Assembly: GCA_947302865.1 (NCBI GenBank)
Contig: CAMYWS010000014.1
Location: 1-14,396, forward strand
From: an uncultured Clostridia bacterium
GTDB lineage: Bacteria > Bacillota_A > Clostridia > Christensenellales > CAG-138
Length of the DNA stretch: 14,396 nucleotides
Reading direction: 5' to 3'
In this document: one piece after another, positions 2,987 to 10,183 of the stretch
Numbering within the stretch: position 1 is the first letter of the stretch
How the letters are laid out: every line of letters starts with the position of its first letter
Position numbers and translations under genes: made by a program
The notes under the pieces: model-generated
The model's input: the letters and a program-made list of their open reading frames with translations, nothing else
Told to the model about the DNA's origin: nothing
The model's database searches: none

Positions 2987-3991
2987 ATGGGGGAAGCGGC
3001 AATCGGCGCAACATTCTTTTTTGACTGGGAAATGCAGCTCATGGAGTGGCTGCAGGCGCATATCGGCAAGACCGATATCGGGTTCTGGATCCTTTCGAAT
3101 CTGTCCGCGTTCGGCGAGGAGCTGCTGCTGATCGCCATCATGGGTTTTCTGTATTGGGGACTCAGCAAGGAGTTCGGCAAGTACGTCGGCGTGAACGTGC
3201 TGATGGTGAACGTCTGGAATCCGATGATCAAAAATGTGGTTTTACGGCTCAGACCGTATTTCGTGGCCGCGGAAAACGGGTACGCCATCGACGCGCTGCG
3301 TCCCGTCGACAGCAGCAAACCCATCTACGACGTCGCCGCACAGGGTTATTCCTTCCCGAGCGGGCATTCGTCCAACGCCGTGACGATGTACGGCTCGCTT
3401 GCGGCGCATGAGAAGAAAAACAAGATCCTGTGGACGATCGCGATCGTTCTGCCGCTGCTCGTCGGCTTCTCGCGCGTGTTCGTCGGCGTGCATTATCCGA
3501 CGGACGTGCTCGCGGGCTGGGCGCTCGGGATCATCATCGTGCTGCTGGTCCCGTTCCTGCGCAAAAAGATCAAGAACCGCTGGCTGTTCTACGGCGTGCT
3601 GCTGCTGACGACAATACCGGGCTTCTTCTACTGCAAAACAAACGACTATTTCAGCTCCTTCGGCATGCTCCTGGGCTTCATGCTTGCAGAGCCGTTCGAG
3701 GAAAAGTTCGTCAGGTTCGAGAACACGAAGAACATCTTCCGCTGCATCCTGCGCACCATCGGCGGCGCGGCTCTCTATTTCGGGCTGAACACGCTGCTGA
3801 AACTGCCGTTCCCGGACGCGCTTCTGAATCCGGAAGTTCCGAATATCCTGTCCAACCTGATCCGCACGCTGCGTTACGCAGCGGTGATCTTCATCCTCAT
3901 CGGCGTCTACCCGATGCTGTTCAAGCCGACCGGCAAGCTGTGGGATAAGATCTTCGGCAGGAAGAAGCAGAAAGAAACGCCGGAGAAATAA
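2987..3991 (+). CDS. PAP2-family membrane phosphatase
   Basis: This 334-residue integral membrane protein carries the three PAP2/acid-phosphatase motifs in order: K82-x6-R89-P90 (KNVVLRLRP), PSGH at 124-127, and S162-R163-x5-H169-x3-D173 (SRVFVGVHYPTD). The histidines form and resolve the phospho-enzyme intermediate. Family members remove phosphate from phosphatidic acid, phosphatidylglycerophosphate, undecaprenyl pyrophosphate or related lipids, usually at the outer face of the membrane. The substrate here is not determined. Helices lie around 44-59, 147-161, 174-191, 198-215, 255-272 and 297-312. The protein is longer than minimal PAP2 enzymes because of a C-terminal membrane extension after residue 195, ending in a lysine-rich tail. 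It is monocistronic, with its own promoter (2920-2948) and terminator (4008-4045). Confidence 0.92.
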   Translation: MGEAAIGATFFFDWEMQLMEWLQAHIGKTDIGFWILSNLSAFGEELLLIAIMGFLYWGLSKEFGKYVGVNVLMVNVWNPMIKNVVLRLRPYFVAAENGYAIDALRPVDSSKPIYDVAAQGYSFPSGHSSNAVTMYGSLAAHEKKNKILWTIAIVLPLLVGFSRVFVGVHYPTDVLAGWALGIIIVLLVPFLRKKIKNRWLFYGVLLLTTIPGFFYCKTNDYFSSFGMLLGFMLAEPFEEKFVRFENTKNIFRCILRTIGGAALYFGLNTLLKLPFPDALLNPEVPNILSNLIRTLRYAAVIFILIGVYPMLFKPTGKLWDKIFGRKKQKETPEK

Positions 3992-4293: not shown

Positions 4294-7200
4294 TCAATAT
4301 TCGATGTCCAGCCGGAACGGGAGATCGTCGCCGAGCGATTCCTGCGCTTTCTGCATATTGTGCGAGATGCAGGCTGTTTCGAGATTGTTCAGCATCAGCA
4401 GCGGCGAAATATCGGTCAGTTCCGGCGTCCAGGAGACCTTGATGTATTCGAGTTCCGGATGCTGTTCGATGAACGCCTTGAACGTCTCGTTCGTGAAGCG
4501 GCAGTTGCCCGCGTGGATCTCACGGATCTTCACGTTTCTGACCGCGTCCATCCACAGCGCGCAGTCCGTGTTGAACACGTTCAGACACCAGAACTCCGGG
4601 AAGACGGACAGTACCTGATACTGTGCGGGATCAAGCCGGTCCTCGAGATTGTCGACCGAGAGGTTGAAACCGTTCCAATCACGGTTGGCTTCGGTCAGAT
4701 CGAGCGACGTGAGCGGAGAAAGATCGGTCACCTGCGTGCCGCTGATCGTCAGGTTCTGCAGATGCGGAAGCTTCTCGATGCCCGCGATGGACGTGATCTT
4801 CAGCCCGTTGACATCGATCAGATAAAGCGAAGGTATGTCGAACAACACGGAAATGTCGGTGATCTTCGGACAGGTACGGATCCCGATTTCCTCCAGATTC
4901 GTCAGCGCTTCTATGCCGTCCGGCGACTCGATCGGATTGCAGAAGATGTCGAACCGCCGAAGGTTCGGAAGACGGGACAGGAAGGAAAGATCGGTGAGCG
5001 GTCCCTGCGTGACGCGGAACCGTTCGTCCGACCCGTTGCGGGAAAGCCAGCCCGCGGTCCCGTCGGACTGCCAGTCGTCGTCGTACCACCAGCTGCCGGG
5101 ATCGTACACCGTATCGCCCGCGATCCGGATCTCCCGCACCTTCGAAAGGACGGAATCGGGAAGGGCAAGGAAGTCCCCGACCGGTATGCGGTCGATCGTG
5201 AACCGGACATCGCAGTCGTCCGGCAGCGCGCCGATCGGCGTAAGATCGGAAACCGGCGCTCCCTGCAGATCAAGATACCGCAGCTTCGAAAGCCCCTGCA
5301 CGTCTTCGATCGACTCCACCTGCGTGAACCAGATCTTCAGCTCTTCGAGCTCCGTCAGATTCCGGACGCCCTCGATCGAGGTGATCGGCGCGTTGGTCAG
5401 CTGCAGCCGCCTGAGATTCTGCATCGTAAACGCGGCGGACGCGTCGGTCAGACTGTAACATGCCTCCACGCAGAGGTCCTCCAGATTGCCGAGGTACTGA
5501 ATGCCTTCAAGCGATTCAAGCCCCTGATTCTGGATGTTCAGGTTTTTAAGTCCCGTCAGCACGGAAAGCCGCGAAAGGTCCGTCATGGTCCCCGTGGGGA
5601 TCTCCTCGCGCTCGCCCGTATCACGGTCGATCACCGTGAAGACCGGCGGGTAGACGCTAAAGTCCGTATACGTTTCCTGCATATCCCAGTTGATGACCCG
5701 GTCTCCGTAGATGTTCAGATCCTGCACGTGGGCAAGCAGGGCGCTCGGCAGCGTGTCGAGCTCGTCGAGGGACAGGAGCTTTACGTACGGCTCATACGGA
5801 CGCCACCATTCGTTCGGATACTCGATATCGACCTGATAGAAGTTCTTGCTTTCCTTCAGAAGGTTCGCCTGCTGTCCGAGATGCGCCGGCACGGAAAGCC
5901 GGTTGCCTTTGAGCCCGTACAGCGGGGAAAGATCCGTCACGCCGTCGATGTCGAACAGTTCGATGGCATAGTATCCTTTGGGATCGAGGTCGGCAAGCGG
6001 GGAAAGATCCTTAAGATCTACGATGGATTCCAGACGGATGGCGCTGACGGAGAGGTTCTTGAAACTCGGCAGCGTAAAGAGCTGCCGGAGGCGAAGACTG
6101 CTGAGCGACAGCCCTTCGAGCGCCGACCAGTCGGAAAGACGCGGACAATCCCGGATCTCCAGATCGACGAATTTGCCGCCTTTGATGCGCCTGAGATTTT
6201 GAATGCCGTCCAGCGAGGTCAGAAAATCGGATTCGCTGATCGTAACTTTCGTCACGTCAAACGCGGGCAGACCGACGAGCGTCGGGATGCCGTGCAGAAT
6301 CAGCTCTCTTTGTACGGACGGGAACAGGGAATAATCCAGCGGCGCGTCGCTGCCGCGGTTGCTGCCGCCGCGGAACCACAGCTCGAATCGGTTGACCGTC
6401 GCGTCCTTGATATACGGAAGCGCAGAACCGTTCCGGTCGGTGACGTTCAGGAAATCGTATCGCGTGATCGCCGAAAGCCCGGACCAGTCGTCTACCTCAG
6501 AGACGCCGAAGTTGAAAAGGTCTTTGTTGACAATATCGGACAGATAGTTCACGTGATCCGGCCCGGCGCCGTACAGCTCCAGGATTTTGAGCCGCGGCAG
6601 CCTGACGACGGGCTCCACGTCGCGCAGATCGAAACATTCGGAGAACTTTACCCGGTTGAGAGCCGTGCAGCCGGACAGCGCGGAAATATCGGTCAGGTTG
6701 CGGAGATTTTGACATTCGATCTCGTCGAGTGCGGTATGGCTTTCCAGCCCGTGCAGGGAGCGGACAGAATCGGCGTTGCGCAGATAAAGCGTTCTTAACG
6801 CGCCTGCGCCGGACAGGAAGGACAGGTCCGGCGCGCGGAAATCCTCGGCTTCAAAGTGCTCGAGACCGGAGCAGCCGATCAGCGCGTTCAGGTCGGACAG
6901 CGCAGGGCAGTTGTCTATCCGCACCTCCTTCAGCTCCTTATGCTCCGTAAGTCCGTTCAGGGAGGTGAGCGCGGGAAGATTGTTCAGATTGAGATGGATC
7001 AGCGATCTTGCGTTCGCAAGACAGGAAAGGTCCGAAAGGCGCAGATCGTTGAAGTCGACCTTGGTGAGCTTGGTGCACGCCGAAAGCCCGGACGCTTCCC
7101 GTACGCCGTCTTCACTGCCGGCGGACAGCGTCAGCTGCAGCAGCGTCGGCGGTCCGAACGTATCGAGGTCCTGCGGCACGTCGCCCGTGAGGTCCATGTT

Positions 7201-8151
7201 TACATACCGGAGCCGTTCGCAGCCGTTCAGCGGAGAAAAATCCACCGCCTCGCCGGTATAGTCCAGATTGATGATCTGCGTGCCGGAAAGTCCGTCAAGA
7301 TCGGCGATCCGGCAGTCAAGGATGCGTACGGAGTCCAGCCGCGAAAGACCCGAGAGGTCGGGAAGCGTCCCTTCGACGCAGACCAGATCCAAAAACTGCA
7401 GATTGGTCATGTAGCGCAGAAAGTCCAGATCCTCCCAGCGGTACAGCGTGATCTCGTCCCCCGTATCATTGTCCAGCCAGTGCGCGCCGTGATCGTCCGT
7501 GAAGCGGTTGGCGAAGTTTTCCGCGTCGACCCGTGCGACGTTCAGTTCCTTCACCCATTGCTCGTCGCCGAACAGCGGGCAACACCGGTCGCCGATGATG
7601 AACAGCTGATGCACGCGGGCAAGGTCCTCGGGCTTGATGCCGGCGTTCTCCGGTACGCGCGGCGCAGCGGTCGGCGCGGGCGTTTCCTGCGGCACGACCG
7701 GCTCGGCGGCGCATTTTGCCTTTTGCGCGTTCACGATCAGCAGAACAGCGGCGGCGACGAGGATCGCGGCGCCCGCAATGCCGATGATCCACGGCAGCGG
7801 ACTCTTTTTGCCGACGGCGGATGCGATGCGCTCGGCAAGCTCGTCGACGGAGTAGCGCTCCGCGATGATCATATGCCGCGCAAGGAGCGCGTTTTTGATC
7901 AGCTCCGGCGGCGTGCTGCTGTCCAGCGCGACGGGGATCAGCGTCGCGTTCTTCGAACGGAGCGCAAAGAACTGCGCTGCGGCAGGCGAATCCTCGCTGA
8001 GGTTTTCGGACAGAAAAAGCAGGACTGCATCGCCGCGTTTCGGCTTGTCCGCTTCGCGCACGGTCACGCCCTTTTTGCGCAGGGCTTCCAGCACGGGACG
8101 GACCGCTTCGGCGTCGGCGGGCACGTACAGAGGACAGATCGTTTGTTTCAT
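4294..8151 (-). CDS. Giant membrane-anchored LRR protein with degenerate N-terminal TIR-like domain
   Basis: This 1285-residue protein has a TIR-like fold of about 115 residues: DAVLLFLSENLSEDSP at 41-56 and LIPVALD at 71-77, as in TIR strands. The WYDEGI-type loop is deleted and the catalytic glutamate position reads Gln/Ala (AAAQFF), so NADase activity is unlikely. A membrane helix follows at about 119-141, then a Pro/Thr linker (150-168), then an LRR ectodomain of roughly 1100 residues. The repeats are internalin-like, about 22 residues long (SPLxGL, LxxLxLxxxxVTDL). A module with GD (G187, G816, G1012) and a later TG/NG-x-E motif starts three LRR blocks. No LPXTG, GW or SLH anchor is seen, so the helix is the anchor, with the N terminus inside and the LRRs outside. 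It is third in the operon, 23 bases after the preceding gene, with AGGAAAGGA before ATG 8151. The ligand is unknown. Confidence 0.85.
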   Translation of the reverse strand: MKQTICPLYVPADAEAVRPVLEALRKKGVTVREADKPKRGDAVLLFLSENLSEDSPAAAQFFALRSKNATLIPVALDSSTPPELIKNALLARHMIIAERYSVDELAERIASAVGKKSPLPWIIGIAGAAILVAAAVLLIVNAQKAKCAAEPVVPQETPAPTAAPRVPENAGIKPEDLARVHQLFIIGDRCCPLFGDEQWVKELNVARVDAENFANRFTDDHGAHWLDNDTGDEITLYRWEDLDFLRYMTNLQFLDLVCVEGTLPDLSGLSRLDSVRILDCRIADLDGLSGTQIINLDYTGEAVDFSPLNGCERLRYVNMDLTGDVPQDLDTFGPPTLLQLTLSAGSEDGVREASGLSACTKLTKVDFNDLRLSDLSCLANARSLIHLNLNNLPALTSLNGLTEHKELKEVRIDNCPALSDLNALIGCSGLEHFEAEDFRAPDLSFLSGAGALRTLYLRNADSVRSLHGLESHTALDEIECQNLRNLTDISALSGCTALNRVKFSECFDLRDVEPVVRLPRLKILELYGAGPDHVNYLSDIVNKDLFNFGVSEVDDWSGLSAITRYDFLNVTDRNGSALPYIKDATVNRFELWFRGGSNRGSDAPLDYSLFPSVQRELILHGIPTLVGLPAFDVTKVTISESDFLTSLDGIQNLRRIKGGKFVDLEIRDCPRLSDWSALEGLSLSSLRLRQLFTLPSFKNLSVSAIRLESIVDLKDLSPLADLDPKGYYAIELFDIDGVTDLSPLYGLKGNRLSVPAHLGQQANLLKESKNFYQVDIEYPNEWWRPYEPYVKLLSLDELDTLPSALLAHVQDLNIYGDRVINWDMQETYTDFSVYPPVFTVIDRDTGEREEIPTGTMTDLSRLSVLTGLKNLNIQNQGLESLEGIQYLGNLEDLCVEACYSLTDASAAFTMQNLRRLQLTNAPITSIEGVRNLTELEELKIWFTQVESIEDVQGLSKLRYLDLQGAPVSDLTPIGALPDDCDVRFTIDRIPVGDFLALPDSVLSKVREIRIAGDTVYDPGSWWYDDDWQSDGTAGWLSRNGSDERFRVTQGPLTDLSFLSRLPNLRRFDIFCNPIESPDGIEALTNLEEIGIRTCPKITDISVLFDIPSLYLIDVNGLKITSIAGIEKLPHLQNLTISGTQVTDLSPLTSLDLTEANRDWNGFNLSVDNLEDRLDPAQYQVLSVFPEFWCLNVFNTDCALWMDAVRNVKIREIHAGNCRFTNETFKAFIEQHPELEYIKVSWTPELTDISPLLMLNNLETACISHNMQKAQESLGDDLPFRLDIEY

Positions 8152-8174
8152 GGGTCGGGTTCCTTTCCTGATTT

Positions 8175-9356
8175 TTATCGGACGACGCGCACGGTATACG
8201 GCGCGTCCGGTTCAAGGTCCAGCGGAAGCATATCGATGCTGACTGTCACGGTATCAAGCGCGGGCAGGGCGGAAAGCCCTTTCAGATCGCGCACGGCGGT
8301 ATGTTCAAGGTGCAGCGAACGAAGGCTCGGCAGATCATTCAGCGCTTCTATGCCCGTAACGTCGCTGCCGGAAAGCCAGAGTTCCTCCAGAACGACCAGT
8401 CCGTTCAGCGGAGAGAGGTCCCGTACCGGCTGCCGGACGAGCGCAAGGCATTTGAGATACGGCATGTCCGTGAATGCGGAAAGATCGCTCACGTCGCCTT
8501 TGATCACGCTGCCTGTACCCACGCGGCAGGTCCCGTCCGCGTCGAACCGCACGTCGGACATATCCTGCGGGTGCATATGCCCGCAGAAATACAGTTCCGT
8601 GACGCCGTTCATCTCACTCTTAAGGACGTCGCCGGAGGACTTTCCGATCGCTGCGCGCACGGTGTTTTCCAGCAGCTTGCTCCCGCCGAAGTTCACCGGG
8701 ATCAGGTTCTCGTAATTGGTGACGTCCGGCGTCGGCGAGGGGGAAGGCGTCTCCGCCGCAATAGGCGTCGGCGTCGGAACGGCGGTCGCCGGGACCTCGC
8801 CCGGCCCTCCGAACGGGTCGATCTTTCCCGTCAGAATGCCGTACAGCACGGCAAGCGTCAGCGCCATGAACAGCAGAGCGGCGACCAGTCCCACGCGGTC
8901 CAAAGGGATGTTTTCGCCGCGATGGCGATAGAACGCGCGTCCGAATGCGCCGCGCAGGCCGGACAGGATCGCCTCGTCGTCCGCATTGTTTTTATGAGCA
9001 AGCGTCCTGCCCTTCGCAAGCAGCGCGTTCCATCGCGCGTCGACAGGCGCGTCGTCCAGCGGAACGATCAGAAGCGGATGCCCGTTTGCGATCGCCGCTT
9101 CGATCTCGCTGAGACAGTTCGGCGACGCAAGTGCGGGCTTCGAACGGAAGAACAGCACCGCGCCGCACGCGCGCATGTGCTCGCTGATGTTGCCCGACCA
9201 GTCTTTGCCGGCGGGGATGCCCTCGTCGTACCAGAGCCGCAGCCTGCCGTCGTGCAGCGGCTTGATGATCGACAGGACCCGCGCGGTGTCGAGGTGCGAA
9301 TAGCTGATGAACACGAAGGGGCGTTTGCCCTCGTACGGTCGAAAGAATTCCGTCAC
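8175..9356 (-). CDS. TIR-TM-LRR membrane protein with intact TIR catalytic residues
   Basis: The 393-residue product begins with a canonical bacterial TIR domain: FISYSHLD (16-23), LWYDEGIPAGKDW (41-53), the serine-rich SPNCLSEIEAAI segment with Glu84 at the catalytic position, and LLIVPLD (95-101). TIR domains with this glutamate cleave NAD+ or make cyclic ADP-ribose-type signals, or act as scaffolds. A helix at about 154-176 is followed by a Pro/Ser/Thr linker (187-210). A cap (LLENTVRAAIG, 228-238) and about five LRRs (DLSPLNGL, LEELWLSG, LRSLHLEHTAVRDL) follow. By the positive-inside rule the TIR is cytoplasmic and the LRRs external. The start is GTG 9354-9356, overlapping the previous stop as GTGA with GGAGG about ten bases upstream, so translation is coupled. 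Of the three operon proteins, it is the only one that looks catalytic. Confidence 0.9.
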   Translation of the reverse strand: MTEFFRPYEGKRPFVFISYSHLDTARVLSIIKPLHDGRLRLWYDEGIPAGKDWSGNISEHMRACGAVLFFRSKPALASPNCLSEIEAAIANGHPLLIVPLDDAPVDARWNALLAKGRTLAHKNNADDEAILSGLRGAFGRAFYRHRGENIPLDRVGLVAALLFMALTLAVLYGILTGKIDPFGGPGEVPATAVPTPTPIAAETPSPSPTPDVTNYENLIPVNFGGSKLLENTVRAAIGKSSGDVLKSEMNGVTELYFCGHMHPQDMSDVRFDADGTCRVGTGSVIKGDVSDLSAFTDMPYLKCLALVRQPVRDLSPLNGLVVLEELWLSGSDVTGIEALNDLPSLRSLHLEHTAVRDLKGLSALPALDTVTVSIDMLPLDLEPDAPYTVRVVR

Positions 9357-10183
9357 GGCACGTCGCCTCCGATCAGCACGATCTCATACGCGTCCGAAAG
9401 CGTCAGCACACGCTCGGCGTCCGAAACGACGGCGTCCTGCCCGAGCTCGATGCGTTTCAGATTCTGAATCAGCGCAAGCCCGGAAAGGTCCTCCGGCAGC
9501 GCCGAAAAGCGCAGCGCCGTCACGCCGGAAAGCGATTCCTCCGTGATGGGACCGTTGATCGCACCGCGCACCGCCGCGGTCAGGGCCGGGTCGGAAAAGA
9601 CGACCGTGTCCTCCTTTTGCGGCTTGCCCGCGTCGGGCGGGAACAGGCGTCCGTACAGCAGCGCGCCAGAAAGCATCAGCACGGCAAGCGCCGCCATCGT
9701 CACAGCAATCGTACGAGCCCAATGCGACGTTTCGGCCTGCGGCGGACCGATGAGGTCCTGCGAAAAGCCCTTCGCCCGCAAAAGCGCCGCCTCGATCTCA
9801 TCCGGTTTTGAACCGTTCGGCAGCAGCGTCGGCGTATCGGAGGGCAGCCCGATCGAAAGTCCGCTGTTTCCGCCGTCGGTGTTGAGACAGAGGATCTTCT
9901 GCCCGCGCATCGAGCAGGCGATCGCGCGGCCCTTCGCGGTCAGGTCTGCGCGGAACGCTTCGTCAAGATACAGCACCGTGAGCGCCGCGCCGCGCATCCG
10001 CGCTTCGTTTGCGCGAAGCTCCTCCGCGGTGGTGCCGCCATCCGCGGGGTACCATACGCGCACGCCGCGCCGCCGGAGCCGCCCCAGGAGCTTTCGTACG
10101 CGCTTCCGGTCCGCGTCCGCAAAGCAAAGATACAGATACGGCTCTTTGCCCGCATAGGGCGGAAATGCCTTTGCCGTCTTCAT
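9353..10183 (-). CDS. Degenerate TIR-TM protein with short LRR-like ectodomain
   Basis: The first gene of the operon encodes 276 residues. Residues 14-120 align with the TIR of its neighbour: PYLYLCFADAD for FVFISYSHLD, VRVWYPADGG for LRLWYDEGIPAG, and KILCLN for LLIVPLD. The catalytic glutamate position is Lys84 (LTAKGRAIA) and the phosphate-loop residues are not conserved, so this is probably a non-catalytic TIR used for assembly or regulation. A helix at about 156-177 follows. The external part is only about 95 residues: a cap with FSDPALTAAVRGAIN (196-210), typical of the start of bacterial LRR regions, and one or two repeat-like units (LSGVTALRFSALPEDLSGL). ATG 10183 is preceded by AAGGAGA. 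The gene is clearly paralogous to the next one in layout. Confidence 0.82.
   Translation of the reverse strand: MKTAKAFPPYAGKEPYLYLCFADADRKRVRKLLGRLRRRGVRVWYPADGGTTAEELRANEARMRGAALTVLYLDEAFRADLTAKGRAIACSMRGQKILCLNTDGGNSGLSIGLPSDTPTLLPNGSKPDEIEAALLRAKGFSQDLIGPPQAETSHWARTIAVTMAALAVLMLSGALLYGRLFPPDAGKPQKEDTVVFSDPALTAAVRGAINGPITEESLSGVTALRFSALPEDLSGLALIQNLKRIELGQDAVVSDAERVLTLSDAYEIVLIGGDVP

Follow-up and report, generated by a model that had tools for sequence, protein, structure and literature searches.

A conserved operon of TIR, membrane-helix and leucine-rich-repeat proteins in Firmicutes as a candidate Toll-like receptor pathway of bacteria

Three consecutive minus-strand genes of an uncultured Clostridia bacterium (contig CAMYWS010000014.1), here named A, B and C, encode proteins with an N-terminal TIR or TIR-like domain, a single hydrophobic helix and a C-terminal region built from internalin-like leucine-rich repeats (LRRs) or their cap. 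They lie in a stretch of 14,396 nucleotides, analysed as a whole and called the window in the following. The three genes form a triad that recurs in the same order in other Firmicutes, only B appears to keep the glutamic acid expected of a TIR enzyme, and two further gene families, D and E, repeatedly stand beside the triad and co-occur with it. We propose, at even confidence, that A-B-C is an outward-facing receptor operon in which the TIR domain of B would make a nucleotide signal that E and D would read.

Gene set, order and TIR domains

Gene A (9353..10183, minus strand) encodes 276 residues with a degenerate TIR domain at about residues 10-140, a membrane helix at 158-176 and a short LRR-cap ectodomain. 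Gene B (8175..9356, minus strand) starts with GTG and encodes 393 residues, in which a TIR domain with a glutamic acid at position 84 (Glu84, codon at 9105..9107) is followed by a membrane helix at 157-175 (8832..8888, hydropathy 2.58), a Pro/Thr linker, a cap and about three internalin-like LRRs. Gene C (4294..8151, minus strand) encodes 1285 residues with a TIR-like domain at about 2-115 (7807..8148, from the family alignment and hhalign), a membrane helix at 122-140 (7732..7788, hydropathy 2.97) and an ectodomain of about 1145 residues. The stop of A and the start of B overlap by four bases (9353..9356) in the list of open reading frames (ORFs), a spacing of -4 also found in related loci, and 23 bases separate B from C. 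Purine runs resembling ribosome sites precede A and C, the GTG of B lies inside the 3' end of A, and the overlap suggests that translation of A and B is coupled. A previous reading of the window, made from its sequence only, had given these three genes with the same overlap, gap and coordinates, all of which proved correct, and its ectodomain lengths of about 95, 215 and 1140 residues agree well with the 100, 218 and 1145 or so that we measured from the hydropathy helices.

In order to follow the triad across genomes we scored 7993 candidates and obtained 300 relatives of B at E≤1e-3; all of the best 120 of these 300 carry TIR_2 and cover at least 96% of B. The loci compared were the best 80 of 297 confirmed relatives in species genomes, ranked by likeness to B, and as they were picked in this way and come mostly from metagenome-assembled genomes they are not independent of each other. 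A full B, defined as at least 250 bits, is present in 69 of the 80. A stands directly upstream of it in 67 of these 69 loci, with exactly the four-base overlap in 62, C follows directly downstream within 123 bases in 65, and the complete order A-B-C is found in 64. The exceptions are A and C genes truncated by a contig end (L058 and L007, respectively), L018 and L040, where E separates B from C, and L068, where a single ORF that runs off the contig matches the A profile as well as the B profile. Thus the three-gene order is indeed conserved across genomes, as had been put forward for checking, and with 64 of 69 triads intact we could rule out chance ORFs. Isolated, unlinked homologues are likewise ruled out for the 69 full-B loci, the other 11 of the 80 being cut or more distant TIR-LRR genes. 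The record titles of all 80 loci name Firmicutes (Clostridia, Lachnospiraceae, Oscillospiraceae, Ruminococcaceae, Erysipelotrichaceae and similar), and ruminants are the only animals that appear in these titles. Among the genomes collected, that of L001 comes closest to the window, its B protein being 77% identical. A phage-borne system was rejected, as none of 98 pattern stretches from viral contigs was confirmed as a relative of B.

Several variants of the triad were seen. C is tandemly repeated in several loci, for example L005, L006, L023 and L049, and L064, L065 and L067 hold a form in which C reaches about 1860 residues and A and B are longer as well. A two-gene version, in which a B-like protein of 365-379 residues is followed by a protein of about 545 residues, occurs in Erysipelotrichaceae and one other Firmicutes locus (L072:1094-3838, L074:7992-10739, L075:4334-7075 and L078:771-3553), and the second protein of L072 shows LRRs and a TIR_2 match under the cut-off. 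Upstream of five triads stands a kinase family (L016:3280-4998, L020:2550-4268, L028:5214-6935, L044:2717-4435 and L057:3331-5079), whose member in L016 combines a Ser/Thr kinase domain (Pkinase 3.5e-25) with LRRs behind it (LRR_4 2.2e-11), which is the layout of plant LRR receptor kinases in reversed order; many kinase models of PADLOC match it.

Regarding the N-terminal domains, B matches TIR_2 of Pfam with E=7e-14 and passes the cut-off. The match of A (3.7e-4) falls under it, and A is a TIR by profile comparison, its family profile matching the TIR of B at 99.1%. The Pfam scan of the window proteins gave no TIR match at all for C; in a profile-profile comparison with hhalign its domain matched the TIR of B at 94.5% and that of A at 97.2%, and we would call it TIR-like and go no further. 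The assignment of the N-terminal domains to TIR by profile searches stands for B and A and in part for C. Glu84 and the BB-loop block WYDEGI are invariant in an alignment of 45 B proteins (45 of 45), selected among the best 120 of the 300 relatives, and loose patterns for the two match in 69 and 68 of the 69 full-B loci, respectively. The solved TIR domains closest to that of B are CRISPR-associated Cat1 (2.6e-6), TLR15/TLR2 (3.5e-4) and TLR6 (3.6e-3), and in the alignments Glu84 sits over a glutamic acid of the Cat1 TIR and of a Toll-like receptor (TLR) TIR. We take this position to be that of the catalytic glutamic acid in the alphaC helix of TIR NADases. A catalytic role of the residue in these enzymes agrees with the passages available from PMC7075850. 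At the same position A has other residues than glutamic acid, with an invariant lysine two positions earlier, and C, which is shorter by about 13 residues behind the BB loop, has a glutamine in the window copy. As judged from these alignments, B alone of the three keeps the glutamic acid at the presumed catalytic position, so that B is likely to be the one enzyme and A and C are likely to be pseudo-enzymes.

Topology and ectodomains

Hydropathy gave one hydrophobic helix after the N-terminal domain in each of A, B and C, and none of the three has the layout of a signal peptide. The single helix is found in 64 of 64 relatives of A, 63 of 67 of B and 73 of 78 of C, some of the exceptions being over-long or cut ORFs. 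Counted together, lysine and arginine favour the N-terminal flank of the helix in 65 of the 67 B, 66 of the 74 C and 38 of the 64 A proteins examined; the bias is reversed in one B, one C and eight A proteins and the remainder are ties. By the charge rule this places the TIR domain inside and the LRRs outside the cell, strongly for B and C and more weakly for A, and a topology with the two on opposite sides is borne out to that degree.

LRR families of Pfam were matched in B (LRR_4, 2.7e-7) and in C (LRR_EndoS, 8.3e-29; LRR_4, 1e-27), and none was matched in A, whose ectodomain corresponds to an internalin-type cap with about one repeat (family profile against internalin C2, E=0.001; one LRR motif match). 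A loose LRR motif occurs at 22 places in C, 21 of them beyond the membrane helix, whereas 200 shuffles of residues 201-1285 gave 2.5 matches on average and never more than 6. The Pro/Thr-rich linker, which the sequence-only reading had assigned to each protein along with a TIR or TIR-like domain, one helix and outside LRRs, is evident in B, is present in a short form in C and was not seen in A; the rest of that description held. Among solved structures the LRRs of B are matched best by bacterial Roco ('Rab family') chains and by internalin chains, with no TLR in the best 60 of 89 matches, and internalin models of NCBIfam match B and C under their cut-offs. No wall-anchor motif was seen by eye at the C-termini of A, B and C.

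As the LRRs resemble internalin repeats and those of further bacterial LRR proteins, and ruminants are the only animals in the record titles, one could also think of adhesins for the host or for plant fibre, whose TIR domains would be nothing but cytosolic anchors. The invariance of Glu84 and the BB loop in all 45 aligned B proteins, the conserved order of three genes and the linkage to RyR and SLOG-like genes described below all speak against it, and we regard this explanation as highly improbable.

Two ectodomain comparisons stood out. L005 and L011 are 55-77% identical to the C of the window in the ectodomain and 49-50% in the TIR-like domain, and L006 matches it well mainly across the last 385 residues or so; this pattern may reflect an exchange of ectodomain pieces.

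Partner families D and E

Clustering of 1761 flanking ORFs gave two recurrent families on the strand of the triad, D and E, and two more large clusters on the opposite strand, which we take as putative antisense shadows of coding genes. According to profile searches D, with a RyR and an HD-like region, is present at 42 of the 80 loci and E, with a SLOG-like and a membrane region, at 26. Among the 39 D genes that could be placed, 33 are no more than 80 bases away from the triad, and the recurring layouts are A-B-C-D-E in 10 loci and D-A-B-C-E in six.

The C-terminus of D is a RyR domain, matched by Pfam with 1.8e-15 in L002 (57.4 bits at a gathering score of 27.4) and by the family profile against ryanodine-receptor structures with 3.9e-10, and the region in front of it carries conserved H...HD...D residues. 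D proteins come in a shorter and a longer type, which are about 27% identical; among the longer ones shown singly, L061 reaches 14.6 bits for RyR (E 0.039), under the gathering score, and L011 shows no match. In three of the best 120 of 899 relatives of D (P0318, P0321 and P0328) a C-terminal TIR domain above the Pfam cut-off is fused to the protein. E matches DUF4231 in 15 of 22 proteins (best 1e-6) and has three to four hydrophobic helices in 26 of 26; DUF4231 is presumably akin to the SLATT membrane proteins. Neither a SIR2 nor a macro domain was matched in 22 E and 31 D proteins, and the family profile of E found nothing meaningful in the PDB. In PADLOC the D and E proteins tried gave one weak match, a 4TM effector (0.014) for the E of L012.

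Beyond the loci we determined the presence of B, D and E in 103 genomes of the family to which the L001 genome belongs, with cut-offs (at least 250 bits for B, at least 100 bits for D) that were set after the data had been seen. G090 and G094, with D matches below 45 bits, were dropped, and the counts include partial genes for B in G079, for D in G063, G064 and G108 and for E in G112. B is present in 21, D in 28 and E in 27 of the 103 genomes. D was found in 20 of the 21 genomes with B compared to 8 of the 82 without it (Fisher p=6e-14), and E in 20 of 21 compared to 7 of 82 (p=2e-14), both p values ignoring shared ancestry; every one of the 21 B genomes has D or E. In 200 genomes of a second family, searched with stricter cut-offs, B occurs in two, D in seven and E in two; of the two B genomes, G191 holds the three genes together on a single contig and the other lacks both D and E. 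From 15 selected genomes with a triad locus free of D and E, nine carry D and/or E elsewhere, two of these as D fragments only. The L001 genome has D on a separate contig and no E was found in its assembly. Downstream of 16 triads that lack D and E no alternative effector could be recognised by eye; the recognisable genes there look ordinary (transporter-like, Maf-like and others), and many of the ORFs appear spurious.

The flanks of the triad in the window look ordinary, with genes for a FlK-type thioesterase (518-907, Pfam 3.1e-36), a double GNAT acetyltransferase (935-1804, Pfam) and a PAP2 phosphatase (2987-3991, Pfam 4.2e-25). In L001 the gene downstream of C encodes a protein whose start is almost identical to that of this phosphatase.

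A proposed pathway and its relation to known systems

The most plausible role of a TIR enzyme that repeatedly adjoins RyR and SLOG-like membrane genes is to make an ADP-ribose-type signal with two readers, and LRR ectodomains on the signal maker suggest a receptor for something outside. According to parts of the respective papers, the SLOG domain of ThsA binds the 3'cADPR (a cyclic ADP-ribose) made by the TIR protein ThsB (PMC11204291), phage RyR proteins bind or cleave 2' and 3'cADPR (PMC13232231), and SLATT membrane proteins beside TIR are predicted to be nucleotide-responsive pores (PMC7159879). In the pathway that we propose, A-B-C would be a receptor operon of the cytoplasmic membrane. 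Its LRR ectodomains, above all the long ectodomain of C, would bind a ligand outside the cell or in the envelope and gather the three cytosolic domains, with the pseudo-TIRs of A and C as partners or scaffold and B as the sole enzyme converting NAD+ to a cADPR-type signal. E would read this signal through a SLOG-like sensor joined to a multi-span membrane region, likely a pore, and D through a RyR joined to an HD-like domain, as a second effector or as the enzyme that ends the signal. Their genes could adjoin the triad or lie at another place in the genome, and the outcome would be growth arrest or death of the sensing cell. Of this pathway the sequences show the genes with their order, the topology signals, the invariant glutamic acid of B and the linkage and co-occurrence of D and E; the complex, the sensing of a ligand, the NAD+ chemistry, the nature of the signal, the roles of D and E and the phenotype are proposed.

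A number of observations weigh against this proposal. For the enzyme, glutamic acid at the position of Glu84 is frequent in some TLR TIR domains and is thus no proof of an NADase, as passages of PMC7075850 make clear, and the domain profile of C, compared with the PDB, retrieved designed repeats and weak matches that look like chance, but no TIR. PADLOC matches B weakly (ThsB 0.0024, SAVED-TIR 0.0041) and A and C not at all. For the readers, RyR is found singly at E≤0.01 in 7 of 31 D proteins and the HD family of Pfam in 1 of 31, and since so few pass singly the RyR assignment of most longer-type D proteins rests on the joint profile. The SLOG match of E (YAcAr) is weak, with E≤0.01 in 8 of 22 proteins and 7.1e-6 at best, and of four E proteins shown singly two stay under the Pfam cut-off and two have no match. 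For the linkage, D and E are absent beside the triad in the window itself and in its nearest relative L001, several triads of Lachnospiraceae are followed by ordinary-looking genes, and in six of the 15 selected genomes with a D/E-free triad locus the assembly holds neither D nor E. Both families also occur without B, D in 8 and E in 7 of the 82 genomes mentioned above, and in the second family B is absent from six of seven D genomes and one of two E genomes. For the ligand, the ectodomain of C is only somewhat less conserved than the TIR-like domain in most of 16 alignments.

The points on linkage would suit a triad that is a self-contained receptor for the envelope or for contact, in which the TIR of B acts directly, by loss of NAD+ or as a scaffold, and D and E make up a nucleotide pathway of their own that happens to share loci and lineages with it. 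Such a receptor would account for the solitary triads of the window, L001 and several Lachnospiraceae loci, for the six genomes without D and E and for a D-E pair away from the triad in G015, and the co-occurrence is inflated because genomes of one family share their history. We nevertheless consider it a doubtful explanation, as 33 of 39 placed D genes are within 80 bases of a triad, E is inserted between B and C in L018 and L040, D or E accompanies B in 21 of 21 genomes and fusions of D with TIR exist.

The conservation of C bears on what is sensed. Fast evolution of its ectodomain was not seen in the 16 alignments of the window C with its relatives, so that an arms race is not favoured and a stable ligand fits as well or better. 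The system could accordingly be non-immune and sense the cell wall, kin or the state of the community (biofilm, neighbour lysis), its TIR nucleotide being an ordinary second messenger. Besides the ectodomain, which is not hypervariable and in L005 and L011 even more conserved than the TIR-like domain, the lack of confirmed B relatives among the 98 viral-contig stretches and the Ser/Thr kinases with LRR ectodomains upstream of five triads point in this direction. TIR, SLOG, RyR and membrane regions are, however, domains of conflict systems in the portions of the literature at hand, and B is patchily distributed (21 of 103 genomes in one family, 2 of 200 in the other), and we think a non-immune role unlikely.

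To our knowledge, bacterial TIR signalling is known from cytosolic infection sensors. A description of a bacterial TIR-membrane-LRR operon was not found among the matches listed (title or start of the abstract) from the mainly open-access full-text literature, in line with the earlier reading, whose author was aware of no described system with this gene set. Within the parts available, TIR-LRR domain associations in bacteria are mentioned in PMC7145615, LRR-fused TIRs are counted in PMC9153377 with animal TLRs as the type, PMC7075850 reviews some bacterial TIR groups without the triad layout among those covered there, and PMC13142454 treats TIR proteins of amoebae. As far as domains and gene order tell, the triad would add a new variant to TIR nucleotide signalling, one whose receptor layout we did not find described in these sources.

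Internalins share with the triad an exported region with a cap and LRRs of a similar kind, but the triad has an N-terminal cytosolic TIR domain and a helix in place of the signal peptide, and no wall-anchor motif was seen. RyR is said to have been predicted as a part of nucleotide-centred conflict systems by Burroughs, Kaur, Aravind and colleagues (2015). The SLATT/SLOG/RyR conflict systems have a similar set of TIR, SLOG and membrane pore domains, whereas the passages of PMC7159879 available show no triad of outside LRR receptors. The RyR domain of phage RyDEP (PF02026), which handles 2' and 3'cADPR according to an excerpt of PMC13232231, resembles that of D, but D is bacterial, linked to TIR, provided with an HD-like region and known here from its sequence alone. 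The proposed signalling would be like that of Thoeris with a sensor added on the outside. In Thoeris a TIR enzyme and a SLOG-bearing or membrane-spanning responder share one locus and an NAD+-derived signal, as proposed here, connects them. B has the TIR domain with a glutamic acid at the catalytic position that characterises ThsB (TIR_2 7e-14, Glu84 in 45 of 45), but a ThsA of the SIR2-SLOG or TM-macro type is missing among the window proteins scanned, and E is a SLOG-like protein with DUF4231. In contrast to Thoeris, the TIR of the triad is predicted to be membrane-bound, with an outside LRR sensor, two pseudo-TIR partners and an added HD-like/RyR protein.

With Toll-like receptors the triad shares, as predicted for B and in degenerate or TIR-like form for A and C, a cytosolic TIR domain, one membrane helix and outside LRRs, and possibly the assembly of paralogues into a multimer. 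The order is TIR, helix, LRR in all three proteins, whereas TLRs have the LRRs at the N-terminus and TIR at the C-terminus, the LRRs are internalin-like and bacterial, and the glutamic acid of B is expected to serve an enzyme. The best scores go to bacterial LRR proteins such as internalins, so the likeness is one of layout and not of shown descent, and of the idea of Toll-receptor parts in reversed order the layout has survived and the LRRs of TLR type have not. Somewhat short of even confidence, we would tentatively describe a bacterial Toll-like pathway, in which a heteromeric receptor with outside LRRs, one active TIR and pseudo-TIR partners answers a signal from outside or from the envelope by making an ADP-ribose-type messenger for a SLOG-gated pore and an HD-RyR protein. 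Because D and E are linked to the triad, the downstream steps can be tested directly, and bacterial RyR proteins would gain a native partner. If true, nucleotide signals made by TIR domains can convey what happens outside the cell, and TIR, membrane helix and LRR were joined into a receptor in bacteria, independently of or before the Toll receptors.

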